Shown here in pieces: positions 1-52,221 of a stretch of DNA of 52,221 bases (position 1 is its first letter; every line of letters begins with the position of its first letter). The stretch is from the IMG/VR virus record IMGVR_UViG_3300048041_000040, positions 1 to 52,221 of that record. One strand, written 5' to 3'. The notes beneath the pieces are model-generated. The model had not been told where the DNA came from. It saw only the letters and a list, made by a program, of their open reading frames with translations, and ran no database searches. This DNA comes from a virus. A program made the translations under genes and the position numbers.

Positions 1-2
1 TC

Positions 3-722
3 GAAAACCCGTCATTTGCGCATAATGAAAAACTGAACAAGGAGATTGCCGAGGAACTGGCGAAGGCCAGCGCGGGTCCGGACGCCGAAAGAGTGAACGC
101 GATCGTACAGGCGCTTAGGGGCGGGGCGGCTACCGCCGCCGTGCGAACCGACCACGGAGAGGCATTTGTCCGGGAACTGCGGGGGAAGAACCCGGCAACG
201 AACCGGTTCTCCGATCTGGAAAAGCAGAACAGCTTGCCTCCGAACCTGCTGGAGAGCGTCGAAAAGCAGGAATCGAATAGTGGGAAAAACAAGAACGACA
301 GTTCCGTAGGGGCGCAGGGTCCGTTCCAGTTCATGCCGGCTACGTGGAGCCAGTACGGGCGCGGTGGCGACGTACACGACGAATCCCGCGCGGCTGAAGC
401 GGCGGCAAAACTGTACGCCTACCTGTTAAAGAAGTACAAGGGGGATGTGGCTAAGTCTCTCGCGGCCTACAACTGGGGCGAGGGGAACGTCGATAATTAT
501 GGCCTGAAAAACGCGCCAAGGGAAACCCGCGAATACGTAGCTAAGATAATGGCCGACATGCAACGGCGGAACGGAGCCGATCAACCCGCACAGGTTACGT
601 CAGTCGCGCAGGCCGCGCCGAGCGTAGGGCGTGCCGCGCCGCCGCAAAACGTCAACATCAGCGTGACGGTTCCGGCCGGCGCGGATGTGCACCAAACGAT
701 TAACGGGATGGCGCCGGGATGA
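3..722 (+). CDS. Tape measure protein, C-terminal part with lytic transglycosylase domain (5'-truncated copy)
   Basis: The window begins inside this gene; the first whole codon is at 3 and the full copy is at 47761-49722. The fragment carries the goose-lysozyme/SLT-like domain: the ESVEKQESNSG segment with the likely catalytic glutamate, then GAQGPFQFMPATW and AAYNWGEGNV, which are typical SLT motifs. In the virion it would act on peptidoglycan during DNA entry. It ends in TGA overlapping the ATG of the next gene at 719. It is partial only because of where the contig starts and is not a broken gene. Confidence 0.9.
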   Translation, partial: ENPSFAHNEKLNKEIAEELAKASAGPDAERVNAIVQALRGGAATAAVRTDHGEAFVRELRGKNPATNRFSDLEKQNSLPPNLLESVEKQESNSGKNKNDSSVGAQGPFQFMPATWSQYGRGGDVHDESRAAEAAAKLYAYLLKKYKGDVAKSLAAYNWGEGNVDNYGLKNAPRETREYVAKIMADMQRRNGADQPAQVTSVAQAAPSVGRAAPPQNVNISVTVPAGADVHQTINGMAPG

Positions 723-1477
723 GCTTCGGGCGCACAGCTTTTCAGGTCGGGTTTGAAGTATCCCCGATCCTGCTCGTACAAGGCCTTGCCGCGAGCATGC
801 CGGGCAATATGTTGCCGATCCTCGCGATTACGCAGGCGGCGAGTTTCGTCAATGGCCTGTTGTCCGGGGCCGTCAGTCTGAACCCGGACACCTATTTCGC
901 TCGGTTTCAGCCGATGGCGGGCGGGACATTGATCTCAAACCAGATCGGACAGTACCCGTTCGCTAACCAGACCGTCGCGGCCAACGCGATCATTTCCCAG
1001 CCCTTGAATATCAGCGTGGAAATGATTTGCCCGGCACGTCAAGCCGGCGACATGATCGTGCGCCTGGCGACCTTGAGTGCGCTCAAGCTGGCGCTGGATA
1101 ACCACATCGCGCAAGGCGGATACTTCACATATGCCACGCCCGCGTTCATCTACACGAATTTAATCTTGATCGGGCTTCGCGACATTACGCCGGGCGACAG
1201 CAAACAAAAACAGACCGTGTGGCAGTGGGACTTCCAGCGCCCGCTTATCACTCAAGATACCGCCGCGACCGCTACGAACTCGCTCATGTCAAAGCTGAAC
1301 AGTTTTCTACCGCCGGGCACGCCGGCCGGTATCACGCCATCGTGGAGTGGGATACAATCGGCGGTAGGCAGTTCGGTGTCCAACGCGCTCGGCGCGGTCG
1401 TGCCGTCCGCAAGCAATTTGGTCGGTTCGGTCACCGGCTTGAGCAACACTCCCGCAGATTTCGCTGAAGGCCCGTAA
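719..1477 (+). CDS. Tail or baseplate structural protein (left copy)
   Basis: A 252-residue protein lying directly after the tape measure, with a 4-base ATGA overlap that implies translational coupling. It has no signal peptide. The N-terminal half is moderately hydrophobic and Gly/Ala-rich, and the C-terminus is a low-complexity Ser/Gly/Val stretch. In contractile-tail phages this slot between tape measure and baseplate genes usually holds a tail or baseplate initiator protein. I do not recognise a specific family motif, so the role rests on position and composition. An identical copy lies at 49719-50477. Confidence 0.7.
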   Translation: MSFGRTAFQVGFEVSPILLVQGLAASMPGNMLPILAITQAASFVNGLLSGAVSLNPDTYFARFQPMAGGTLISNQIGQYPFANQTVAANAIISQPLNISVEMICPARQAGDMIVRLATLSALKLALDNHIAQGGYFTYATPAFIYTNLILIGLRDITPGDSKQKQTVWQWDFQRPLITQDTAATATNSLMSKLNSFLPPGTPAGITPSWSGIQSAVGSSVSNALGAVVPSASNLVGSVTGLSNTPADFAEGP

Positions 1478-1478
1478 A

Positions 1479-3593
1479 ATGAAAAAACTTGCATACCTGC
1501 TCGCTCTGGGGTCCGGCCTGGCCTTCGCCGCCGGTTCGACGGTCGACCCGACGATCCCCTCCGCGAGTTCGCCGCTAGAGTCCGCGCCGGTTCGGGGGAA
1601 CTTCGCCGCCGCCGCCAATGATATCAACGCGCTGATACAGATCAACGCCGGCACGACTGCCCCGGCGACACCGTTGCTTGGCCAGCAGTGGCTAAACACT
1701 ACATCGACCCCCTACGTGTGGAACGTGTTCGACGGCGCCGTGTGGGACACGATCGGATCGTTGAACGCGAGCACGAATACATTTCAAGCCGGGTCGGTGC
1801 CGTGGTCCGGCGTCACGGGCACGCCGACGACGCTTTCCGGGTACGGGATTACGAACGGGGTATCCAGCGTCGGTGTGACAATGCCGTCCGCGTTTTCGTG
1901 TACCGGCAGCCCGGTCACGTCGAGCGGCACGGTCGCCTGTGCGTTCGCGGCGCAATCGCAAGCATACTTCCTGGCCTCGCCGGCCGGCTCTACGGGCGCC
2001 CCGTTGATGCGTCAAATTGTCGCCACGGATGTGCCGACGCTGAACCAGTCCACGACGGGTAACGCGGCCACTGTGACCACGAATGCGAACTTGACCGGGG
2101 ACGTTACGAGCGTCGGGAACGCGACAACGCTCACGCCAACGGGCGTGACGGCGGGGACGTACGCGCAGATGACCGTCGACGCAAACGGGCGGGCTACGGC
2201 GGGCGTCACGATAAATACGGTGCCGTTCGGCGGTACCGGCGTGGCGAGCATATCCGGGATCGTGAAAGGCGCCGGCACAGGCCCCTTTGTGACCGCGACG
2301 CCGGGAACGGACTATATCGCTCCCGGCGGCGCCTTCGGCACGCCTTCATCCTTGACTTGCACAAACTGCAGCGGAACGGCAGCGGGGTTAAGCATCGGCG
2401 GCACAGTCAACGGCAACACGCTAACCGCCGGCAGCAGTACGTACACTGGAACTGCCGGAAAGACCTACACCTTCCCGGCTACGACCGACACCGTTGCCGG
2501 GATCGGAACCGCACAAACTTGGACGGCCGCACAAACTTTTACGAATTCGGATTTAAAGCTACTTGGCTCTTCTACGGGCGTAACCACATTCACCAGCGCG
2601 AACTCTGGTGCAAGCAACTACACTGTGACCGTGCCGGCCGGAAGCATTACGGTTGCACGAACCGATGCGGCACAGACATTTACCGGCGAGCAGACATTTA
2701 ATGGCCCGTCAGGTTCTCCGGCCATGTTGGTACAAGGCGCAGGTACTGCTGGTTCGAATTATGGATTGAGAGTTCAGGCTGGTCTGAACGCGTCAGATTA
2801 TTCATTCTATGTGGTTGATAATACAAGTACCTATGGATTATTCGAAGTTCTGGGAACTGGCGCTGTAAAAGTAAATAGCGGAGCACAATCACCGACCACT
2901 GCTTTGATAGTGACAGGTGCTACAACCATTTCTACCACATTAGGTGTTTCAGGTGTAGCATCATTCTCGGGAGCATTAACTGCAGGTTCATCAGCAAATA
3001 CTTCAATTGGATATTCAGGATTTGCTAATCCAACTGCTGGCACTTCAGCAGGTACTTCTATCGCATTGAATGGATACCAAGCATCGGCAAATAATTACGG
3101 TATTGGTATTAGCGCCGCAGCGTTGAACGCATCAGGCAAATACGATATATGGTATCAGACAGGATCCACGAATGGCGGTGGACACGCATTCTTTAGTGGT
3201 ACTACTCAGACTGGCTATTTGAGTCTGTCAGGTGCTTTGTCGGTACTGGCTTCAGTGAGTTCTGCTTCGAACATTACTATAGCCGGTGGGAGAGCTGTCA
3301 ATACTACTTCATCGGCATCCACTGCTACCGTGGCGGCTGGTATTGCCTCAACTTATATTGCCACACCGGGCACCACCATAACCGTGACGCTTGCGGCACC
3401 AACCGCAGACGGCGAGCGCCGCAGGATAGTATTTGGTGCCGCGACAACCGTCACATGGGCGGTCACTTCACCGGCCACTGCTGTCGCTGGATTGCCGACC
3501 GTGTATGCGGCGAACACCCACGTTGAAGTTGTTTATAACGCAGTCGCTGGAACACCTACCAACTCGGCTGCGACGACCTGGTACCAGTATTGA
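1479..3593 (+). CDS. Tail fibre protein with signal-peptide-like N-terminus
   Basis: A 704-residue fibre. Residues about 25-95 form the common phage fibre attachment module (APVRGNFAAAANDINAL, then GTTAPATPLLGQQW). The rest is Gly/Ser/Thr-rich beta-structured sequence with repeated 'TGTAGKTYTFPATTDTV' and 'AQTF'-type blades seen in fibre shafts. The first 20 residues (MKKLAYLLALGSGLAFAAGS) look like a Sec signal peptide, which is odd for a virion protein assembled in the cytoplasm. The start at 1479 lies one base after the previous stop, with AAGG about 10 bases upstream. From about 2690 the base composition turns AT-richer, suggesting an exchanged tip domain. The second, truncated copy differs at residue 563 (Ser here, Ala there). 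Confidence 0.85.
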   Translation: MKKLAYLLALGSGLAFAAGSTVDPTIPSASSPLESAPVRGNFAAAANDINALIQINAGTTAPATPLLGQQWLNTTSTPYVWNVFDGAVWDTIGSLNASTNTFQAGSVPWSGVTGTPTTLSGYGITNGVSSVGVTMPSAFSCTGSPVTSSGTVACAFAAQSQAYFLASPAGSTGAPLMRQIVATDVPTLNQSTTGNAATVTTNANLTGDVTSVGNATTLTPTGVTAGTYAQMTVDANGRATAGVTINTVPFGGTGVASISGIVKGAGTGPFVTATPGTDYIAPGGAFGTPSSLTCTNCSGTAAGLSIGGTVNGNTLTAGSSTYTGTAGKTYTFPATTDTVAGIGTAQTWTAAQTFTNSDLKLLGSSTGVTTFTSANSGASNYTVTVPAGSITVARTDAAQTFTGEQTFNGPSGSPAMLVQGAGTAGSNYGLRVQAGLNASDYSFYVVDNTSTYGLFEVLGTGAVKVNSGAQSPTTALIVTGATTISTTLGVSGVASFSGALTAGSSANTSIGYSGFANPTAGTSAGTSIALNGYQASANNYGIGISAAALNASGKYDIWYQTGSTNGGGHAFFSGTTQTGYLSLSGALSVLASVSSASNITIAGGRAVNTTSSASTATVAAGIASTYIATPGTTITVTLAAPTADGERRRIVFGAATTVTWAVTSPATAVAGLPTVYAANTHVEVVYNAVAGTPTNSAATTWYQY

Positions 3594-24650: not shown

Positions 24651-24679
24651 TTGGTTGGTAGGAATCGGTAAGATATGCT
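24651..24679 (+). promoter_or_regulatory. Rightward sigma70-type promoter of the helicase operon
   Basis: -35 TTGGTT (24651-24656), 17-base spacer, -10 TATGCT (24674-24679). It stands about 30 bases before the first rightward gene at 24709. Its -10 shares two bases with the -10 of the divergent promoter, so the two polymerases would compete. Confidence 0.55.
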
Positions 24680-24698
24680 ACATTAACTAAAACGTCAA
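24670..24698 (-). promoter_or_regulatory. Leftward sigma70-type promoter of the polymerase/ssDNA-binding operon
   Basis: Read leftward: -35 TTGACG (24698-24693), 17-base spacer, -10 TATCTT (24675-24670). The first leftward gene starts at 24638. The palindrome found in the other two leftward promoters is absent, so this operon is probably controlled differently. Confidence 0.55.
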
Positions 24699-24708
24699 CA
24701 GGAATTTT

Positions 24709-24849
24709 ATGCCAGTTATAAATATTGATTGCCGCGTCGGTCTCTCGTTATTCCCCGATAATTCGATTGACGCGATTGTGACAGATCCGCCGTATGAGCT
24801 ATCTGCCGAATACTGCGCTATCGCGAACGCCCGGATCGACGCAGCATGA
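24709..24849 (+). CDS. Micro-gene: internally deleted DNA methyltransferase (type DPPYEL)
   Basis: 46 codons. The first 31 read like the start of an N6-adenine/N4-cytosine methyltransferase: a 'hNIDCRVGLSLFPDNSIDA' opening and catalytic motif IV IVTDPPYEL. The last 15 (AEYCAIANARIDAA) read like the extreme C-terminus of the same enzyme class, where 'EY..IA..RI' normally follows the SAM-binding motif. The 150-250 residues expected in between are missing, yet the frame is intact. The TGA overlaps the helicase ATG at 24846. Methylation activity is very unlikely; it may serve as a coupling leader peptide. Confidence 0.75.
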   Translation: MPVINIDCRVGLSLFPDNSIDAIVTDPPYELSAEYCAIANARIDAA

Positions 24850-26549
24850 CCGTCGTTCTCCGACCGTATCAACAGCGCTTAGACGACGAAATTTCTCATT
24901 TATGGGAGTCCGGCCATGCCGTAGTGATGGCCGTTGCGCCGACCGGTGCGGGCAAGACCTGTATTTTCTCTGAGAAGCTGCGCAAGCACGTCGGCGCATG
25001 CGTAGCCATCGCGCACCGTCGCGAACTGGTTGGGCAAATGTCGCTCGCTCTCGCACGCAACGGCGTACGCCATCGCGTGATCGGCCCTGATAAAACCGTC
25101 AAAGCGTGCCAACGCCTGCATATCCGAAAACTTGGCCGGCACTTTGTCGACCCAAACGCACGATGCGCGGCTGCGAGCGTGGACACCCTGATCAATATGG
25201 ACCCGGCCAACCCGTGGCTCGGGCAGGTCACGCTGTGGATCGGCGACGAAGGGCACCACTTCCTACAAGCGAACAAATGGGGCCGCGCCGTCGCGCTGTT
25301 CACCAATCCAACATGCCGTGGTCTGTTGGTCACAGCGACGCCAACCCGCGCGGACGGTAAAGGTCTCGGCGCCGATAACGACGGCCTGGCGCATGCGTTG
25401 GTCGAGGCGCCCGGCTTGCGTGAATTGATCCATATGGGATACTTGACGGACTATCGTATTTTTACGATGCCGTCCGACGTGGATTACTCGACGGTTCCGG
25501 TCGGGGCATCGGGCGAACTGGTTCATGCGAAACTGTGCGAGGCGGTACACGCGTCAGGCACGTTCGTGGGCGATGTGGTCAAGTCGTATCTGAAACACGC
25601 GGCGGGGAAATTGGGCGTTACATTCGCGGTCGACGTAGAATCAGCAAGCGAGATCGCGGCGGCGTTCCGTGCGGCCGGGGTGCCCGCCGAGTGTGTGCAT
25701 GCCGGAACGCCGGACGACTTACGCGCCGATATCCTGGCACGGTTCGAACGGCGCGAGGTGATGCAGCTCGTGAACGTGGACCTGTTCGGCGAAGGTTTCG
25801 ACTTGCCGGCGATCGAATGCGTGTCGCTGGCGCGTAAAACTGAATCGTTTTCGTTATTTGCGCAGCAGTGCGGGCGCACGCTTCGACCTATGGAAGGGAA
25901 GCAACATGCAATCATTATTGACCACGTGGGTAATGTATTTCGGCATGCTGTCATGCGCGTTGATCCTTGGCTTAATCGTCCTGTTATCGATCTCTGTTAT
26001 CGCCAATGGTCTCTTGACCGTCGCGGTTCGCGTGGCGGAGCGGTCCCTTCCGACGTTACGCCGGTTCGGTACTGCCTTAACGCTACGTGCTGTCAACCGT
26101 TCGAACGCTTCCGCAAGTGCTGCCCCTTCTGCGATACGCCTATCCCCGAACCCGCCGGCCGAGCCGCACCGGAGCAAGTAGAAGGCGACCTCGGCGAGCT
26201 GGACCCGGCCACGCTTGCCGAGCTGTTCGCCCGTATCGGTGGCGTGCAATCGGCGCGCATACCGACGCACCTCGACGGGCCGGCGCGTATCGCAGCGCAG
26301 CGCAACATTGACGCCCGACGCGAGGCGCAAGCGGCGGTACAGAACGCGCTCGCCTGGTACGGCGGATGGCTGGCGGCGCGTGGCGTTACCGACCAGGGCG
26401 AACAGTGGCGGGAGTTCTGGCAGACGTTCGGCGTCGATGTGGCCACGATTCAAGCATTGCCCGCCCGCGATATGTGGGAGTGGTACGGCAAAATAGGTGC
26501 GAAATTATCCGAATACGGTATTGACGTTTCGGTCAATGCCGGTTTATAG
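24846..26549 (+). CDS. Superfamily 2 DNA helicase
   Basis: A 567-residue helicase. Walker A is APTGAGKT (Lys37), the DEAH-like box is DEGH at 134-137, motif III is TATPTR near 163, and motif VI is QQCGRTLRP. After the helicase core come a zinc-ribbon-like group (RYCLNATC, CCPFC) and a helical C-terminus (ARDMWEWYGKIGAKL). It probably unwinds DNA at the fork or during recombination. Between 'DHVGNVFRH' and 'WSLDRR' there are some 10 more residues than in relatives I recall; another frame at this spot codes a strong membrane helix. Coupled to the micro-gene upstream by ATGA. Confidence 0.9.
   Translation: MTVVLRPYQQRLDDEISHLWESGHAVVMAVAPTGAGKTCIFSEKLRKHVGACVAIAHRRELVGQMSLALARNGVRHRVIGPDKTVKACQRLHIRKLGRHFVDPNARCAAASVDTLINMDPANPWLGQVTLWIGDEGHHFLQANKWGRAVALFTNPTCRGLLVTATPTRADGKGLGADNDGLAHALVEAPGLRELIHMGYLTDYRIFTMPSDVDYSTVPVGASGELVHAKLCEAVHASGTFVGDVVKSYLKHAAGKLGVTFAVDVESASEIAAAFRAAGVPAECVHAGTPDDLRADILARFERREVMQLVNVDLFGEGFDLPAIECVSLARKTESFSLFAQQCGRTLRPMEGKQHAIIIDHVGNVFRHAVMRVDPWLNRPVIDLCYRQWSLDRRGSRGGAVPSDVTPVRYCLNATCCQPFERFRKCCPFCDTPIPEPAGRAAPEQVEGDLGELDPATLAELFARIGGVQSARIPTHLDGPARIAAQRNIDARREAQAAVQNALAWYGGWLAARGVTDQGEQWREFWQTFGVDVATIQALPARDMWEWYGKIGAKLSEYGIDVSVNAGL
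25906..26181 (+). CDS. Possible overprinted membrane protein inside the helicase gene
   Basis: In another frame within the helicase gene, an ATG at 25906 has a strong AAGGGAAG ribosome binding site at 25894-25901. It opens 91 codons beginning MQSLLTTWVMYFGMLS. Residues about 8-38 are almost purely hydrophobic (CALILGLIVLLSISVIANGL), a clear membrane segment, then a basic region follows. The hydrophobic part lies exactly where the helicase protein looks unusual. This could be an overlapping gene or chance; no homology is known to me. Low confidence. Confidence 0.3.
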   Translation: MQSLLTTWVMYFGMLSCALILGLIVLLSISVIANGLLTVAVRVAERSLPTLRRFGTALTLRAVNRSNASASAAPSAIRLSPNPPAEPHRSK

Positions 26550-27517: not shown

Positions 27518-27705
27518 TGCTGAGTGTCGGCAAACAACTCGAACGCCTGATCACTCTCTGCGGTACCGCCGACGTGACCCGGTGGGAAGAAACGTTCATT
27601 CGCGGCATGTGGGGACGGTACTTACGCGCCAACAGTTCGACGAGCGGCATGACCGGATCGATGGTTGAGAAAATCGAATCAATTTATACGAAGCATTACG
27701 GATGA
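27517..27705 (+). CDS. Small conserved phage protein
   Basis: 62 residues from the ATG at 27517 (MLSVGKQLERLITLCG), two codons inside a possible GTG start at 27511; a GGGGG stretch upstream can serve as ribosome binding site. The pattern 'TADVTRWEETFIRGMW' and 'SMVEKIESIYTKHYG' fits a small helical family in phage genomes that has no known role. It overlaps the methyltransferase ATG at 27702. Confidence 0.6.
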   Translation: MLSVGKQLERLITLCGTADVTRWEETFIRGMWGRYLRANSSTSGMTGSMVEKIESIYTKHYG

Positions 27706-28613
27706 TCGCCTTTTACAACGAAATCGATGACTACTGTTGCGCGTGGCTATCGAACCTCATGGATGCCGGCCACATTACGCCGGGCGTGATCTCTAACAAA
27801 TCAATCGAGGACTTAACACCCTATGAACTTATCGGGTATGACCGGGTTCACCTGTTCGCTGGAATCGGCGTCTGGGACTACGCTCTACGCCTGGCCGGAT
27901 GGCCGAGTGACCGACCCGTCTGGACGCTCAGTTGCCCGTGCCAGCCTTTCAGCTCGGCAGGCAAAGGCGTTGGGTTTGATGACAAGCGGCACTTGTGGCC
28001 TCACGCCCAATGGCTCATTGAAGAGTGCAAACCTGTCGAACTCATTGGCGAGCAGGTTGCAAGTGGCGCTGCGTCCGCTTGGATCGACCTTGTACACGCT
28101 GACTTGGAAGCAATGGGCTACGCCTTCGGGTGTGTCCCGTTTCCGTCTGCGGGCGTCGGTGCTCCGCATATCAGAGACCGGGCTTACTGGGTGGCCGACT
28201 CCGAACTGTCCGCGAAAGAACGATTCGGACCACACGGCAGGGAAAGCGTACCCGGCGGGGCGGAATACGTACCTACCGGAAGCGGCGGCACTGACGGGCT
28301 GGCCGACACCCCAAGCGCGGGATCATTTCCCTGCGCATACGCCGGAATACATAGCGGCGAAGAAAGCGCAGGGTCACGGCATGGCGAACTTGAACGATCT
28401 GGTGCAGTTGACCAGCCCGGCCCGACTAACGGTTTCTGGCGTGATGCTGACTGGCTCGGATGCCGGGATGGGAAGTGGCGGCCCGTTGAATCCGGAACAT
28501 TCCCGCTGGCTCATGGGGTTGCCAATCGAATGGGCAAATTGCGCGCCTACGGAAACGCGATTAACGCTAAGCAAGCGCAAGCTTTCATTGAATGCTACCT
28601 AAATGAAATTTAA
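27702..28613 (+). CDS. DNA C5-cytosine methyltransferase
   Basis: A 303-residue enzyme of the Dcm class. Motif I is HLFAGIGVWDYAL (residues 50-62). Motif IV is SCPCQPFSSAGKG with catalytic Cys80. Motif VI is weak (GEQV, Glu117), motif VIII is IRDRAYWVAD, and the C-terminal motif is RAYGNAINAKQAQAFIE. Residues about 168-270 form the variable region and look loosely structured (Gly/Ser/Glu-rich). It may protect phage DNA from restriction. Almost all of it, from about residue 41, also encodes a second protein in another frame, which may explain the odd variable region. No partner restriction enzyme is seen. Confidence 0.85.
   Translation: MIAFYNEIDDYCCAWLSNLMDAGHITPGVISNKSIEDLTPYELIGYDRVHLFAGIGVWDYALRLAGWPSDRPVWTLSCPCQPFSSAGKGVGFDDKRHLWPHAQWLIEECKPVELIGEQVASGAASAWIDLVHADLEAMGYAFGCVPFPSAGVGAPHIRDRAYWVADSELSAKERFGPHGRESVPGGAEYVPTGSGGTDGLADTPSAGSFPCAYAGIHSGEESAGSRHGELERSGAVDQPGPTNGFWRDADWLGCRDGKWRPVESGTFPLAHGVANRMGKLRAYGNAINAKQAQAFIECYLNEI
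27823..28602 (+). CDS. Overlapping gene nested in the C5 methyltransferase
   Basis: A 259-codon frame, shifted by one base relative to the methyltransferase and nested within it. It starts MNLSGMTGFTCSLESASGTT. Recognisable elements: 'SLSARQAKALGL', LTSGTCGL-type TSGTCGLTPNGSLKSANLSN, 'LTGWPTP' twice, 'ARDHFPAHTPEYI' and LNPEHSRWLMGLPIEWANC. I know this series from annotated phage proteins found together with Dcm genes, always in the overlapping position. The product's role is unknown. A chance open frame of this length is unlikely, and motif recurrence in other phages, if confirmed, would prove coding. Confidence 0.6.
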   Translation: MNLSGMTGFTCSLESASGTTLYAWPDGRVTDPSGRSVARASLSARQAKALGLMTSGTCGLTPNGSLKSANLSNSLASRLQVALRPLGSTLYTLTWKQWATPSGVSRFRLRASVLRISETGLTGWPTPNCPRKNDSDHTAGKAYPAGRNTYLPEAAALTGWPTPQARDHFPAHTPEYIAAKKAQGHGMANLNDLVQLTSPARLTVSGVMLTGSDAGMGSGGPLNPEHSRWLMGLPIEWANCAPTETRLTLSKRKLSLNAT

Positions 28614-28896
28614 ACCCGAAGACCGCAAGGCGCAAATTATCGCCGAGGCGTTACGCCAGGCCCGCGCACGTGGCTATCAGAACGTTCGCGTCGAGCATAT
28701 CGCCGCGTCGCTGGGCATCACGGCCGGCCTGATTTACCACTATTACAAGACGGTCCCGTTACTCAAGCGCGCCATTATGGGAGCGGCCATTGCGCAACGT
28801 TTGCCGGAAATCGTCGCGCAGGGGCTTGTTGCTAAAGATCCTCGGGCGATGAATGCGGACGATAGCTTGAAGGCTTCGGCGAGGGCTACGGTATGA
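28603..28896 (+). CDS. TetR-type helix-turn-helix protein without ligand domain
   Basis: A 97-residue protein. Residues 5-55 are a TetR N-terminal DNA-binding domain: [40 protein letters not shown] with [12 protein letters not shown]. The large C-terminal ligand-binding domain of TetR proteins is absent. Only about 35 further residues follow. TetR-type proteins bind palindromes of roughly 15 bp, so it is a candidate to bind the operator shared by the promoters at 18606 and 38629. Coupled to the methyltransferase relic downstream by ATGA. Confidence 0.75.
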
Positions 28897-29027
28897 TCTT
28901 GTGCGATTTGCCGTATGGTACGACGGGCGTCGCATGTGCGAACACGGGGCGCGAATTTATCGGGATCGAGAAAGACCCGACGTACTTCGTAATTGCCGAG
29001 TATCGTATTACCTGCGCGACGATCTGA
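28893..29027 (+). CDS. Micro-gene: internally deleted DNA methyltransferase (type DLPYGTT)
   Basis: 44 codons. [11 protein letters not shown] is the opening and motif IV region of a phage DNA methyltransferase. [18 protein letters not shown], then YFVIAEYRI, is its C-terminal motif I region (normally '[14 protein letters not shown]'). The two parts join at 'GTT', which both carry, as if short direct repeats had recombined and removed the centre. The frame is intact, the ATG overlaps the TetR-like gene stop, and the primase starts four bases after its stop. It belongs to a different methyltransferase subtype than the relic at 24709. Enzyme activity is very unlikely. Confidence 0.75.
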
Positions 29028-29031
29028 CCCT

Positions 29032-31341
29032 ATGCGCTCGCTCCCCGACGCATTGGCGCCGCTGGCCGCCTACCGGCAATTCATTCTCTACAAAACCGTA
29101 CCGAGCGCAGTTCGGCCCGGTAGGACCGACAAACTACCCTGCGACTGGCAAACCGGCCAAGTCGTAACGGCGCACGATCCACGGTACTGGACCGAGGCAT
29201 CGACGGCAATCGCAGCCGCTACGGCAAACCCCGGCTATGGCGTCGGGTTCGTGTTCACCGAGACGGATCCCTTCTGGTTCGTGGATATCGACGGCGCATA
29301 TGACGGGGTGGCCTGGTCGCCGGTCGCGCAACAGCTCTGCACGATGTTTGCCGGGGCGGCCGTCGAGATATCCACATCGGGCAAGGGCTTGCACCTGTTT
29401 GGCGCCGGCACCGTTCCGCCGCATGGTACGCGCTTGAAAGCCCTCGGCCTGGAGTTCTACACATCGGGCCGGTTCGTGGCGTTGACCGGCGACCAGGCGA
29501 GAGGGTCGGCAGCGACCGACTTTACCCCTCTCATGCCCTCGTTCGTGGCGCAATGGTTCCCGCCCGGCGCTGGCGAGCACGCCCCGTCCGTCGAGTGGTC
29601 AACCGAGCCGGTGCCCGAGTGGCGCGGGCCTACCGATGATGACGACCTGATACGGCGGGCGATACACTCGTCTAGCCTGTCGGCGCTTCAGGGTCGGGCG
29701 TCGTTCGCCGACCTGTGGCAGTGCAACGTCGACGTGCTGGCCGCCACGTACCCGCCCGATCCGAATTCGTCCGATGCGTTCGGCGCCAGCGAAGCCGACT
29801 CGTCCCTGGCGTCACACTTGCTGTTCTGGACCGGCAAAGACTGCGAACGCACGCGCCAGATCATGCAACGGTCCGCCCTGGTGCGCGACAAGTGGCAGCG
29901 CGAGGATTATCTCGAACGGACGATACTGCGCGCGGCTGGCGTTGTGGCCAAGGTGTGCCAGAATAAGGAAAAAACGCTTCCCTCGCTGGCCGTAGGCGGC
30001 GATCCGGTCGATAAATTCGGGCCGGTTATTTTCGCTAACGAGCTGGAACGGTTCTTTAAAAACTGTGTGTACGTGCAAGACAATCACGCGATTCTGTTGC
30101 CGACGGGCGACATGGTCGACCAACAGCGCTTTAATGCGGCGTATCCCGGAAAACTGTTCTGTATGGACGGGCAGAACGAACGAACGTCTAAACTCGCATG
30201 GGACGCCTACCTGCAAAACTCTGTTGTTTTACTGCCACACGTTCAAGGTACGTGCTTTCGTCCAGACCTGCCGTTCCAGTCGATTGTTGCCGAGGCAAGC
30301 CGTACCTGGGTCAACGTGTACCGCAAGCCGGAAGTGGTCCGGGGAGCGGGCGACGTCGGGCCGTACATCCAGTTATTGAAAAAAATGTTACCCGTGGGTG
30401 ATGACTGGTTAATCCTGGACGCGTTTACAAAAGCGATCGTGCAGTACCCCGGCGTGAAATTCGACTGGACCATATTCCTGCAGGGCACGCCAGGCAATGG
30501 CAAAAGTACGATTCTGCAATGCCTTCGGTACGCGCTGGGGCGCCGGTATATCTTCAATATCAAGCCGCACATGATCGACGGCAATTTCAACGGGTGGATG
30601 GAAAACAACGTTCTGTATGTCGGCGATGACGTGTATACATACACCGACCGGGCCGGGATATTCGAGGCGCTCAAATCGATGATCACGGAGCGCGAGCACG
30701 CCGTTACGTACAAGGGCATCGACTCGGTGCAGAAAAATATCTGCGGCAACTTCTTTTTCATGGACAACCATCGGAACGGCTTGCACAAAACGCCCGAGGA
30801 TCGCCGTATCTGTCCGCTGTTCTGCGCGCAACAGACCAAGGAACAGCGTGACGCGGACGGTCTTACGGCGCACTGGTTCGCGACCGTCTACTACCCGTGG
30901 CTTGAAGCCGAAGGGTACCGGTACGTCGCGCACTATCTGCATACCGGCGCCATCGATCCCCGGTTCAATCCGGCCGGTGCGTGCGGCGAGGCGCCGGCTA
31001 CCAGTTCGACGCAGATCGCTATCGAATCGAGCATGACCCTGCTGGAGGAAGACATTACCGAATTGATCGAGACGCGCGCGCCGGGGTTCTGCGGCGGGTT
31101 TATCAGCGCGACGATGCTCAAACGCGCATCGGAGAAAAAAGTTTCTCGTTTGAAAGTCAAGGAAGCGTTGGAACGGCTCGGGTATGACAGCGCGGGCCGC
31201 ACTGGTCGAGACGTTACGCCCGATTCGACACGCAGCATTATCTACGTCAAACGCGGTACGGTGGTGGTCGACCTGGCTGCCGAATATGAAGCAGCACAAT
31301 TGAAAGGAAGTTTCCCCGGTCGACCCCTAGTCGGTTGGTGA
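29032..31341 (+). CDS. Primase-polymerase/helicase fusion (PrimPol plus D5-like SF3 helicase)
   Basis: 769 residues from the ATG at 29032. The N-terminal primase-polymerase has FWFVDIDGAYD (Asp85, Asp87) and STSGKGLHLFG (His121). The C-terminal SF3/D5-type helicase has Walker A GTPGNGKST (Lys491), the Walker B-like VLYVGDDV and the later sensor-like 'FFFMDNHRNG'. A winged-helix-like end (FISATMLKRASEKKVSRLKV) may bind DNA. Such fusions prime and unwind DNA at the origin. It is the last gene of the rightward replication operon and faces a convergent gene 60 bases on. Confidence 0.88.
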   Translation: MRSLPDALAPLAAYRQFILYKTVPSAVRPGRTDKLPCDWQTGQVVTAHDPRYWTEASTAIAAATANPGYGVGFVFTETDPFWFVDIDGAYDGVAWSPVAQQLCTMFAGAAVEISTSGKGLHLFGAGTVPPHGTRLKALGLEFYTSGRFVALTGDQARGSAATDFTPLMPSFVAQWFPPGAGEHAPSVEWSTEPVPEWRGPTDDDDLIRRAIHSSSLSALQGRASFADLWQCNVDVLAATYPPDPNSSDAFGASEADSSLASHLLFWTGKDCERTRQIMQRSALVRDKWQREDYLERTILRAAGVVAKVCQNKEKTLPSLAVGGDPVDKFGPVIFANELERFFKNCVYVQDNHAILLPTGDMVDQQRFNAAYPGKLFCMDGQNERTSKLAWDAYLQNSVVLLPHVQGTCFRPDLPFQSIVAEASRTWVNVYRKPEVVRGAGDVGPYIQLLKKMLPVGDDWLILDAFTKAIVQYPGVKFDWTIFLQGTPGNGKSTILQCLRYALGRRYIFNIKPHMIDGNFNGWMENNVLYVGDDVYTYTDRAGIFEALKSMITEREHAVTYKGIDSVQKNICGNFFFMDNHRNGLHKTPEDRRICPLFCAQQTKEQRDADGLTAHWFATVYYPWLEAEGYRYVAHYLHTGAIDPRFNPAGACGEAPATSSTQIAIESSMTLLEEDITELIETRAPGFCGGFISATMLKRASEKKVSRLKVKEALERLGYDSAGRTGRDVTPDSTRSIIYVKRGTVVVDLAAEYEAAQLKGSFPGRPLVGW

Positions 31342-47760: not shown

Positions 47761-49722
47761 ATGGTTAATAAAAGCGTCATTGAGATTGATGTACGCGACG
47801 AGGCCTTTAAAGAATTCGCCGCCTTGTTCGGCAAATACCGCACCGATCTAGCCGCGCTTCCCGGCGCGTGGGACAAGCTCGATAAAGCCATCAAGTCCAC
47901 AAAAAACCCAATCACCCAACTTAGCGCCATTGGTAAAACGATGAGCGAAGAGTTCAAAAAAGCCGCTACGTTTCAGGACAAACTCCGCGTGGCCACGCTC
48001 GGCGCGGGCAAAGCGTTCGGCGCCATCGCCAAGAGTGCCGGGTCTGCGGCCAAGTCGATTAAAGGCATCACATTAAACCTGTTCAAATGGGCGAGTTTGT
48101 CCAGTTTCTTTACCGGGATATTGGGCGGCGCGGGCCTATTCGGGCTGGATCGGCTCGGCAAAGCGCAAGGCGATCAGCGGCGCGAGGCGCAAGGGTTGGG
48201 CGTGACCACCGGGGAGCTATCCGCGTCCAAAATCAGCTTCGGGCGGGCCTTCGACGTAGAGAGTACGCTGGCGAGAGTGGCCGCAGCAAAAAACGACCCG
48301 ACGCAGTGGGGCACTCTCGGAGCGCTCGGCCAGCGCCCGCAAGATTTTCAGGGCAAGAGTAGCGCCGACCTGCAAGAAAAGTTACTGCTGTCGGTAAAGG
48401 ACTTAGTGGACCGGGGCGGCGTCAATTACCAGCAAGTCGCCAAGGCGCGCGGAGCCGACCAGTTTTTCAGTGCCGAGGACTTGACCCGCATCAAGTCCAT
48501 GAAGCGCGAGGAGGTCGAGCAACTTGTCGCGAGTTATCACGCGCGTAAGGCACTGCTTGACCAGGACGAAGCGAGCCTGCGCAAATGGCAAGCGTTCACC
48601 GAGTCGCTGTCGCTCGCGGGGCAGCGCATCGAGAATGTGTTAGGCGACAAGCTGGTGCGCCTGGCCGAGCCGATCGGTAGATTGTCCGCCGCGTTCACTG
48701 ACGCTGTGGCCAAGCTGCTCGATACCGGCAAGATAGATAAATGGATCAACCTGCTGGCCGACGACATTAAACGGTTCGCCGACTGGCTGGGGGGAGACGA
48801 AGCTGACGCCGCCATGCGGAAATTCCTCGACGCACTAGACGACATCGGCGGCGCCCTGTATGCGTTCGGCGGCGCTATCGGTAAAATCCTGCACCTGCTC
48901 CCCGGCGTCGGAGAGAAGACGCTGAAATACACGCAGCAAAAGCAACTCGACAGCCTGGAGGAATTGGCGCCGGACCTTGAAAAGAAACTGCGGGTCCAGC
49001 TCGAAAACCCGTCATTTGCGCATAATGAAAAACTGAACAAGGAGATTGCCGAGGAACTGGCGAAGGCCAGCGCGGGTCCGGACGCCGAAAGAGTGAACGC
49101 GATCGTACAGGCGCTTAGGGGCGGGGCGGCTACCGCCGCCGTGCGAACCGACCACGGAGAGGCATTTGTCCGGGAACTGCGGGGGAAGAACCCGGCAACG
49201 AACCGGTTCTCCGATCTGGAAAAGCAGAACAGCTTGCCTCCGAACCTGCTGGAGAGCGTCGAAAAGCAGGAATCGAATAGTGGGAAAAACAAGAACGACA
49301 GTTCCGTAGGGGCGCAGGGTCCGTTCCAGTTCATGCCGGCTACGTGGAGCCAGTACGGGCGCGGTGGCGACGTACACGACGAATCCCGCGCGGCTGAAGC
49401 GGCGGCAAAACTGTACGCCTACCTGTTAAAGAAGTACAAGGGGGATGTGGCTAAGTCTCTCGCGGCCTACAACTGGGGCGAGGGGAACGTCGATAATTAT
49501 GGCCTGAAAAACGCGCCAAGGGAAACCCGCGAATACGTAGCTAAGATAATGGCCGACATGCAACGGCGGAACGGAGCCGATCAACCCGCACAGGTTACGT
49601 CAGTCGCGCAGGCCGCGCCGAGCGTAGGGCGTGCCGCGCCGCCGCAAAACGTCAACATCAGCGTGACGGTTCCGGCCGGCGCGGATGTGCACCAAACGAT
49701 TAACGGGATGGCGCCGGGATGA
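47761..49722 (+). CDS. Tape measure protein with C-terminal lytic transglycosylase
   Basis: 653 residues. Helical and charged for most of its length; membrane-like segments near residues 100-130 (LNLFKWASLSSFFTGILGGA, GLFGLDRLG). The C-terminal domain is a lysozyme-like transglycosylase: ESVEKQESNSG with catalytic Glu near 504, GAQGPFQFMPATW near 517-530, AAYNWGEGNV near 575. It sets tail length (the helical part suggests a tail of about 90-100 nm) and opens the cell wall during entry. The C-terminal end (NVNISVTVPAGADVHQTING) is a short beta stretch. Complete here; the copy at 3-722 lacks the start. Confidence 0.88.
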   Translation: MVNKSVIEIDVRDEAFKEFAALFGKYRTDLAALPGAWDKLDKAIKSTKNPITQLSAIGKTMSEEFKKAATFQDKLRVATLGAGKAFGAIAKSAGSAAKSIKGITLNLFKWASLSSFFTGILGGAGLFGLDRLGKAQGDQRREAQGLGVTTGELSASKISFGRAFDVESTLARVAAAKNDPTQWGTLGALGQRPQDFQGKSSADLQEKLLLSVKDLVDRGGVNYQQVAKARGADQFFSAEDLTRIKSMKREEVEQLVASYHARKALLDQDEASLRKWQAFTESLSLAGQRIENVLGDKLVRLAEPIGRLSAAFTDAVAKLLDTGKIDKWINLLADDIKRFADWLGGDEADAAMRKFLDALDDIGGALYAFGGAIGKILHLLPGVGEKTLKYTQQKQLDSLEELAPDLEKKLRVQLENPSFAHNEKLNKEIAEELAKASAGPDAERVNAIVQALRGGAATAAVRTDHGEAFVRELRGKNPATNRFSDLEKQNSLPPNLLESVEKQESNSGKNKNDSSVGAQGPFQFMPATWSQYGRGGDVHDESRAAEAAAKLYAYLLKKYKGDVAKSLAAYNWGEGNVDNYGLKNAPRETREYVAKIMADMQRRNGADQPAQVTSVAQAAPSVGRAAPPQNVNISVTVPAGADVHQTINGMAPG

Positions 49723-50477
49723 GCTTCGGGCGCACAGCTTTTCAGGTCGGGTTTGAAGTATCCCCGATCCTGCTCGTACAAGGCCTTGCCGCGAGCATGC
49801 CGGGCAATATGTTGCCGATCCTCGCGATTACGCAGGCGGCGAGTTTCGTCAATGGCCTGTTGTCCGGGGCCGTCAGTCTGAACCCGGACACCTATTTCGC
49901 TCGGTTTCAGCCGATGGCGGGCGGGACATTGATCTCAAACCAGATCGGACAGTACCCGTTCGCTAACCAGACCGTCGCGGCCAACGCGATCATTTCCCAG
50001 CCCTTGAATATCAGCGTGGAAATGATTTGCCCGGCACGTCAAGCCGGCGACATGATCGTGCGCCTGGCGACCTTGAGTGCGCTCAAGCTGGCGCTGGATA
50101 ACCACATCGCGCAAGGCGGATACTTCACATATGCCACGCCCGCGTTCATCTACACGAATTTAATCTTGATCGGGCTTCGCGACATTACGCCGGGCGACAG
50201 CAAACAAAAACAGACCGTGTGGCAGTGGGACTTCCAGCGCCCGCTTATCACTCAAGATACCGCCGCGACCGCTACGAACTCGCTCATGTCAAAGCTGAAC
50301 AGTTTTCTACCGCCGGGCACGCCGGCCGGTATCACGCCATCGTGGAGTGGGATACAATCGGCGGTAGGCAGTTCGGTGTCCAACGCGCTCGGCGCGGTCG
50401 TGCCGTCCGCAAGCAATTTGGTCGGTTCGGTCACCGGCTTGAGCAACACTCCCGCAGATTTCGCTGAAGGCCCGTAA
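49719..50477 (+). CDS. Tail or baseplate structural protein (right copy)
   Basis: Same gene and product as 719-1477, met a second time because the contig passes one genome length. Here it lies in full context: it follows the complete tape measure with an ATGA overlap and precedes the fibre gene by one base. See the left copy for the description of the protein. Confidence 0.7.
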   Translation: MSFGRTAFQVGFEVSPILLVQGLAASMPGNMLPILAITQAASFVNGLLSGAVSLNPDTYFARFQPMAGGTLISNQIGQYPFANQTVAANAIISQPLNISVEMICPARQAGDMIVRLATLSALKLALDNHIAQGGYFTYATPAFIYTNLILIGLRDITPGDSKQKQTVWQWDFQRPLITQDTAATATNSLMSKLNSFLPPGTPAGITPSWSGIQSAVGSSVSNALGAVVPSASNLVGSVTGLSNTPADFAEGP

Positions 50478-50478
50478 A

Positions 50479-52221
50479 ATGAAAAAACTTGCATACCTGC
50501 TCGCTCTGGGGTCCGGCCTGGCCTTCGCCGCCGGTTCGACGGTCGACCCGACGATCCCCTCCGCGAGTTCGCCGCTAGAGTCCGCGCCGGTTCGGGGGAA
50601 CTTCGCCGCCGCCGCCAATGATATCAACGCGCTGATACAGATCAACGCCGGCACGACTGCCCCGGCGACACCGTTGCTTGGCCAGCAGTGGCTAAACACT
50701 ACATCGACCCCCTACGTGTGGAACGTGTTCGACGGCGCCGTGTGGGACACGATCGGATCGTTGAACGCGAGCACGAATACATTTCAAGCCGGGTCGGTGC
50801 CGTGGTCCGGCGTCACGGGCACGCCGACGACGCTTTCCGGGTACGGGATTACGAACGGGGTATCCAGCGTCGGTGTGACAATGCCGTCCGCGTTTTCGTG
50901 TACCGGCAGCCCGGTCACGTCGAGCGGCACGGTCGCCTGTGCGTTCGCGGCGCAATCGCAAGCATACTTCCTGGCCTCGCCGGCCGGCTCTACGGGCGCC
51001 CCGTTGATGCGTCAAATTGTCGCCACGGATGTGCCGACGCTGAACCAGTCCACGACGGGTAACGCGGCCACTGTGACCACGAATGCGAACTTGACCGGGG
51101 ACGTTACGAGCGTCGGGAACGCGACAACGCTCACGCCAACGGGCGTGACGGCGGGGACGTACGCGCAGATGACCGTCGACGCAAACGGGCGGGCTACGGC
51201 GGGCGTCACGATAAATACGGTGCCGTTCGGCGGTACCGGCGTGGCGAGCATATCCGGGATCGTGAAAGGCGCCGGCACAGGCCCCTTTGTGACCGCGACG
51301 CCGGGAACGGACTATATCGCTCCCGGCGGCGCCTTCGGCACGCCTTCATCCTTGACTTGCACAAACTGCAGCGGAACGGCAGCGGGGTTAAGCATCGGCG
51401 GCACAGTCAACGGCAACACGCTAACCGCCGGCAGCAGTACGTACACTGGAACTGCCGGAAAGACCTACACCTTCCCGGCTACGACCGACACCGTTGCCGG
51501 GATCGGAACCGCACAAACTTGGACGGCCGCACAAACTTTTACGAATTCGGATTTAAAGCTACTTGGCTCTTCTACGGGCGTAACCACATTCACCAGCGCG
51601 AACTCTGGTGCAAGCAACTACACTGTGACCGTGCCGGCCGGAAGCATTACGGTTGCACGAACCGATGCGGCACAGACATTTACCGGCGAGCAGACATTTA
51701 ATGGCCCGTCAGGTTCTCCGGCCATGTTGGTACAAGGCGCAGGTACTGCTGGTTCGAATTATGGATTGAGAGTTCAGGCTGGTCTGAACGCGTCAGATTA
51801 TTCATTCTATGTGGTTGATAATACAAGTACCTATGGATTATTCGAAGTTCTGGGAACTGGCGCTGTAAAAGTAAATAGCGGAGCACAATCACCGACCACT
51901 GCTTTGATAGTGACAGGTGCTACAACCATTTCTACCACATTAGGTGTTTCAGGTGTAGCATCATTCTCGGGAGCATTAACTGCAGGTTCATCAGCAAATA
52001 CTTCAATTGGATATTCAGGATTTGCTAATCCAACTGCTGGCACTTCAGCAGGTACTTCTATCGCATTGAATGGATACCAAGCATCGGCAAATAATTACGG
52101 TATTGGTATTAGCGCCGCAGCGTTGAACGCATCAGGCAAATACGATATATGGTATCAGACAGGAGCCACGAATGGCGGTGGACACGCATTCTTTAGTGGT
52201 ACTACTCAGACTGGCTATTTG
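50479..52221 (+). CDS. Tail fibre protein, right copy cut by the window end
   Basis: Identical to the fibre at 1479-3593 for the 581 codons present, except for codon 563: GCC (Ala) here, TCC (Ser) in the left copy. The gene is truncated only because the contig ends. The mismatch lies in the AT-richer, presumably receptor-binding part, so it may reflect real variation in the population or a read-end error. Confidence 0.85.
   Translation, partial: MKKLAYLLALGSGLAFAAGSTVDPTIPSASSPLESAPVRGNFAAAANDINALIQINAGTTAPATPLLGQQWLNTTSTPYVWNVFDGAVWDTIGSLNASTNTFQAGSVPWSGVTGTPTTLSGYGITNGVSSVGVTMPSAFSCTGSPVTSSGTVACAFAAQSQAYFLASPAGSTGAPLMRQIVATDVPTLNQSTTGNAATVTTNANLTGDVTSVGNATTLTPTGVTAGTYAQMTVDANGRATAGVTINTVPFGGTGVASISGIVKGAGTGPFVTATPGTDYIAPGGAFGTPSSLTCTNCSGTAAGLSIGGTVNGNTLTAGSSTYTGTAGKTYTFPATTDTVAGIGTAQTWTAAQTFTNSDLKLLGSSTGVTTFTSANSGASNYTVTVPAGSITVARTDAAQTFTGEQTFNGPSGSPAMLVQGAGTAGSNYGLRVQAGLNASDYSFYVVDNTSTYGLFEVLGTGAVKVNSGAQSPTTALIVTGATTISTTLGVSGVASFSGALTAGSSANTSIGYSGFANPTAGTSAGTSIALNGYQASANNYGIGISAAALNASGKYDIWYQTGATNGGGHAFFSGTTQTGYL

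Follow-up and report, generated by a model that had tools for sequence, protein, structure and literature searches.

The window, a metagenome-type virus record analysed over its whole 52,221 nt, carries directly ahead of a helicase gene a 46-codon open reading frame, W_A, in which sequence comparison confirmed that both ends of a single N6/N4 DNA methyltransferase gene (PF01555) are fused in frame. On this evidence W_A is a real, well-explained deletion scar whose relay role is likely. We give a probability of about two in three to the reading that such scars kept their frame through the coupling of helicase or primase translation to the upstream stop.

A methyltransferase gene reduced to its two ends

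The features at the helicase locus are as follows:
24655..24684, + strand, probable weak rightward promoter TTGGTA-N18-TACATT, located where relatives have clear TTGAC...GATAAT promoters
24670..24698, − strand, divergent leftward promoter-like TTGACG-N17-TATCTT from a consensus scan, with its −35 reading GTCAA on the + strand
24700..24703, + strand, Shine-Dalgarno (SD)-like AGGA of W_A, anti-SD energy −4.3 kcal/mol
24709..24849, + strand, mini-ORF W_A, gutted N6/N4 DNA methyltransferase, 46 codons plus stop
24709..24801, + strand, N-terminal part kept in W_A, 31 codons with DPPYEL at the end, matching the relative L004
24793..24801, + strand, deletion junction of W_A, where N-side YEL and C-side FEL overlap in the parent
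24799..24849, + strand, C-terminal tail kept in W_A, LSAEYCAIANARIDAA and stop, identical in protein to the L004 tail and containing the helicase start region
24846..26549, + strand, DEAD/ResIII-type helicase, its start overlapping the W_A stop

The translation of W_A (MPVINIDCRVGLSLFPDNSIDAIVTDPPYELSAEYCAIANARIDAA, followed by the stop) is open from the ATG through the native stop, and the remnant is free of the internal stops and frameshifts of an ordinary pseudogene. Its TGA (24847-24849) and the ATG of the helicase (24846-24848) share an ATGA overlap at 24846-24849; the helicase itself has 567 residues with ResIII/DEAD and Helicase_C domains. Catalytic motif IV (D-P-P-Y) is present as IVTDPPYEL in the part aligned with L004 residues 6-36, and SAM-binding motif I (DPFAGSGSTG in L004) is absent from the 46 residues. 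No Pfam family was matched by W_A at E 0.1; the L004 gene matches PF01555 at E 5.8e-34. With motif I and the bulk of the fold lost, W_A is, judged from its sequence, dead as an enzyme.

An intact parent gene in a related phage

Relatives were found by a helicase search, which gave four close ones. At the same place, and with the same ATGA overlap with the helicase, L004 carries an intact 364-codon PF01555 methyltransferase, the full gene that the preliminary description had predicted for a relative. Compared separately, both pieces of W_A match this one protein: the first 31 residues correspond to residues 6-36 of its ORF, the first 31 of the gene itself (97%), and the last 18 to residues 352-369 (94%). 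The 47 codons compared differ by 16 synonymous changes and 1 non-synonymous one (12 and 1 in the N-terminal part), and the loss relative to L004 amounts to about 318 codons. The match of both halves to the L004 gene bears out the earlier proposal of one gene that kept its two ends and lost its centre with SAM-binding motif I. Moreover, when 16,552 short ORFs were compared without bias with every long ORF of the fetched loci, five two-piece matches emerged, four of which were gutted methyltransferases, so the two-piece match of W_A is not a product of chance.

Further stubs at the helicase and primase slots

The survey of helicase loci revealed five stubs (W_A, W_B, L003_A, L003_B and L123_A) in three phage contigs, derived from three methyltransferase subfamilies. 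Parentage, junction, ATGA overlap, the intact gene in a relative and the other stubs are all read directly from the sequences. W_B lies in a second slot of the window, ahead of the primase:
28603..28896, + strand, TetR_N-domain gene (domain match), upstream of slot B
28893..29027, + strand, W_B, second gutted methyltransferase, its start overlapping the TetR-like gene stop and its stop 4 nt before the primase
29032..31341, + strand, primase-like protein (domain match: DUF5906, NrS-1 polymerase HBD domain), lacking a Shine-Dalgarno signal of its own

W_B belongs to a different subfamily from W_A, overlaps the TetR-like gene by ATGA, and joins DLPYG to TTGVAC. Its start is an internal methionine of the intact relatives, and about 25 or more N-terminal codons are lost as well. 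In the relatives, slot B holds an intact Dam-like gene (L002), nothing (L004), or a stub of a third methyltransferase subfamily (L003). The joint GGCGAGGGCTACG[G/C]TATGA is common to the window (28880-28897), L002 (8630-8650) and L003 (5385-5405) and is followed by three different methyltransferase families, which gives it the look of a constant site at which genes can be swapped.

L003_A is a different in-frame deletion of the gene gutted in W_A, with about 85 N-terminal codons kept and a GFE junction, and the more distant phage L123 has a 44-codon stub ahead of its helicase. The N-terminal residues kept number 31 in W_A, about 85 in L003_A, 14 in L123_A, 9 in W_B and 7 in L003_B, the last being below the length at which homology is testable. 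The W_A and L003_A deletions look independent in sequence comparison, because the W_A ends are close to L004 (dS 0.75) and saturated in dS against L003, in the opposite order to helicase relatedness. Derivation of W_A from L003_A was rejected, since its ends are nearer L004 than L003.

Outside these loci, gp02 of the Lactococcus phage PhiL.6 (936-group, KP793122) has 68 codons vs about 270 in ~30 close-relative records, through a 606-nt in-frame deletion with its junction in a shared GTT word. It resembles the present stubs in its in-frame gutting and W_B in the GTT junction, and differs in lying in the terminase region of an unrelated phage with a single known carrier. Going by its sequence, gp02 probably does not function as an enzyme; in KP793122 (L183 773-979) it is annotated 'DNA methylase'. 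Since PhiL.6 is an isolated phage, a metagenome artefact is ruled out for gutting events of this type. Searches of IMG/VR with degenerate DNA and exact patterns for the W_A junction found no other carrier, a GFE-junction pattern found L003 only, and a DLPYGTT-junction pattern PhiL.6 only. Matches in Staphylococcus Silviavirus (96% query coverage) were set aside as not evidently the same kind of gutting. In Staphylococcus phage MRSA13 the methyltransferase is seemingly in pieces (L173 998-1225, 1321-1497), and at that place Romulus has a 229-codon adenine-specific methyltransferase gene.

Junction repeats and the reading frame

Each testable junction falls on a short amino-acid word that the parent contains twice (YEL/FEL, GFE, AIL/AML, GTT), and the parent segments overlap by ~3 residues at the protein level at every one of them. 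Analysis of 20 intact relatives showed that exact repeats between the two ends of the gene are often in codon phase: 136 of 298 (46%) at a length of at least 6 nt, and 52 of 88 (59%) at a length of at least 7 nt. The longest repeats of L004 are in phase and include GGGTTCGA, which encodes the GFE word used in L003; a repeat in L117, TGAGCTGG (YELG), matches the junction word of W_A. RecA-independent deletion between short direct repeats is known (PMC5426353), and the stubs share with it junctions on short repeats, whereas their repeats encode recurring amino-acid words, many in codon phase.

All five surveyed stubs are in frame, which has a p of 0.004 if one deletion in three is expected to be so, ~0.02 at 0.456 and ~0.07 at 0.59. 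PhiL.6 does not enter this count, since it came from a search that favoured contiguous matches. No out-of-frame remnant was found among ~105 helicase loci of IMG/VR (80 loci, and about 25 contigs more) and 7 of GTDB, at a sensitivity of about two thirds for 30 residues; measured with natural protein fragments, recovery was 19/27 for 31-residue N-terminal pieces, 18/27 for 30-residue C-terminal pieces and 0/27 for pieces of 14-17 residues. The five of five are no more than suggestive of selection on frame, and frame retention is weak evidence for it because in-phase repeats are common. For the same reason, the earlier argument that retention of the frame alone points to a preserved role is not supported, an in-frame scar being a common outcome when 46-59% of direct repeats are in phase; nor need a scar of 46 codons contain a stop, although decay had been expected to gather them.

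Read in the real frame, the tails end −7 to +11 nt from the downstream start; read in the two other frames, 9 of 10 end 21-133 nt from it and 1 of 10 fuses to the helicase. In Escherichia coli, a gap of +14 nt lowers re-initiation by 40-80% and one of +38 nt almost abolishes it, while the final 15 nt of the upstream gene are enough for coupling (PMC10666635). Because re-initiation falls with distance and the other frames end so far off, polarity is a plausible reason for the kept frame.

Start signals and promoters

As expected of a coupling leader, W_A has a ribosome-binding site of its own (AGGA), and the stop overlaps the next start (W_A, ATGA) or lies within a few nucleotides of it (W_B, 4 nt). 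The helicase signal of the window lies inside the methyltransferase tail and has an anti-SD energy of −3.3 kcal/mol, against a median of −2.4 kcal/mol for all window ATGs; the strong SD of the L123 helicase is likewise inside the tail (−9.3 kcal/mol). The window primase has none (+0.3 kcal/mol), as is also the case in L002. Where a stub or methyltransferase is present, the helicase plausibly relies on start signals that lie within the tail of the methyltransferase; in L123, with its strong SD, coupling may not be needed. The RNA structure of the W_A leader is not unusual (z = 0.35).

The promoter that had been placed just upstream of W_A agrees in position with those of the relatives. Its sequence is weak, however: TTGGTA-N18-TACATT scores under the threshold of the consensus scan, which reports the leftward promoter only, so that its support is positional. 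The region 24655-24698 and the same place in relatives carry overlapping divergent promoters of the form TTGAC ... GATAAT ... GTCAA, with GTCAA serving as −35 for the leftward one, and this arrangement is conserved in distant relatives though the first gene varies. A methyltransferase or stub, when present, occupies the first-gene place after this region, and in many relatives without a methyltransferase the helicase itself does.

Proposed origin, probable relay role and alternative explanations

The proposed origin begins with recombination between two short direct repeats that share a codon phase and encode an identical amino-acid word, which would remove the centre of the gene. The resulting stub would retain the gene's own ribosome-binding site and start, together with the C-terminal tail that encloses the helicase start; ribosomes would load on the stub, terminate at the TGA over the helicase ATG and re-initiate there. 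The frame would be kept partly through the commonness of in-phase repeats in the methyltransferase gene and partly since out-of-frame products would mostly end too distant to feed the helicase. We infer the recombination mechanism, translation, re-initiation and selection for frame from the sequence, and the idea of a coupling leader agrees with the finding of several stubs, each with its own deletion, at coupled positions in operons. A broader version, which we offer tentatively and hold to be rather less probable than its negation, is that the helicase and primase slots of this phage group are docking sites for interchangeable methyltransferases, from which the enzyme is excised at in-phase repeats once methylation stops paying, with selection preserving the stub solely to relay translation to an essential replication gene.

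The main competitor, which we regard as unlikely though serious, is that W_A is a plain recent relic, in frame only via in-phase repeats and due to decay, with the helicase using its own start signals. The high fraction of repeats in phase agrees with it, as do the lone deletion of PhiL.6 amid intact relatives, the lack of a further W_A carrier in IMG/VR by exact junction patterns, and the ends of W_A, which are still so like the intact L004 gene that the deletion may be young. Also counting against a relay are the weak SD that the window helicase possesses, the ordinary structure of the leader RNA and the many relatives in which the helicase is the first gene. Against a plain relic stand the five surveyed stubs, which are all in frame and each end at the downstream start, the primase without an SD behind W_B, and the other frames, in most of which coupling would be lost.

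That W_A encodes a working peptide, such as a decoy or a regulator of a methyltransferase or restriction enzyme, is improbable to a far greater degree. Its start, SD and frame are retained and its end sequences conserved, but the kept pieces vary in length and subfamily among the stubs, which come from three subfamilies, so that no common peptide function is indicated; W_A has no Pfam match, and in IMG/VR the junction patterns turned up no family in which this stub is conserved. With different residues retained in every stub, the earlier suggestion of a decoy peptide finds no footing. Least probable of all is an assembly or chimera artefact. The record is of metagenome type, yet junction words of a few nucleotides are presumably too short to mislead an assembler, the junctions differ across samples, PhiL.6 has the same kind of deletion as an isolated, sequenced phage, and the contig closes on itself through an end repeat of 3,221 nt with 1 mismatch (window 1-3221 vs 49001-52221). 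Because the ends repeat over this length, the map is probably circular with exactly 49,000 nt.

Relation to known systems

The W_A ends are those of a member of the PF01555 phage orphan DNA methyltransferases, intact in L004, from which W_A differs by the loss of the target-recognition region and motif I together with the greater part of the fold. With termination-reinitiation coupling at ATGA (PMC6728339, PMC10666635) it shares the ATGA, a short upstream ORF and a stop at the downstream start; here, however, the upstream ORF is the remnant of a larger enzyme gene and the coupling is putative. Domain atrophy (PMC4432964) likewise involves loss of core elements within a domain with the frame kept, but partial domains there still function, and W_A gives no sign of doing so; the differing pieces among the stubs argue against a common core of that type. 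No description of gutted phage methyltransferases was found in the literature, and the passages searched in two papers about the methylases of 936 phages are silent on the PhiL.6 deletion. Recurrent in-frame gutting in two coupled slots is undescribed in the literature searched, and every ingredient of it is already known.

The natural series of intact, partly gutted and deeply gutted genes illustrates how a phage can drop an enzyme gene and leave the operon behind it undisturbed. Some small ORFs of phage operons, often taken as unknown genes, may be relay stubs. Caution is also due in inferring function from a kept frame, since recurring protein words make in-frame deletions common.

A third methyltransferase in the window

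The window also encodes a C5-cytosine methyltransferase (PF00145) at 27702-28613, which contains PCQPFS and, near the C terminus, a GNAIN motif. Of the three methyltransferases of this phage it is apparently the sole whole one. It has 303 codons vs 501 in L003 (L003 3483-4988), where an HNH-endonuclease-like ORF in another frame (L003 4489-4980) overlaps the extra part. This extra part looks like an inserted homing endonuclease with in-frame readthrough.
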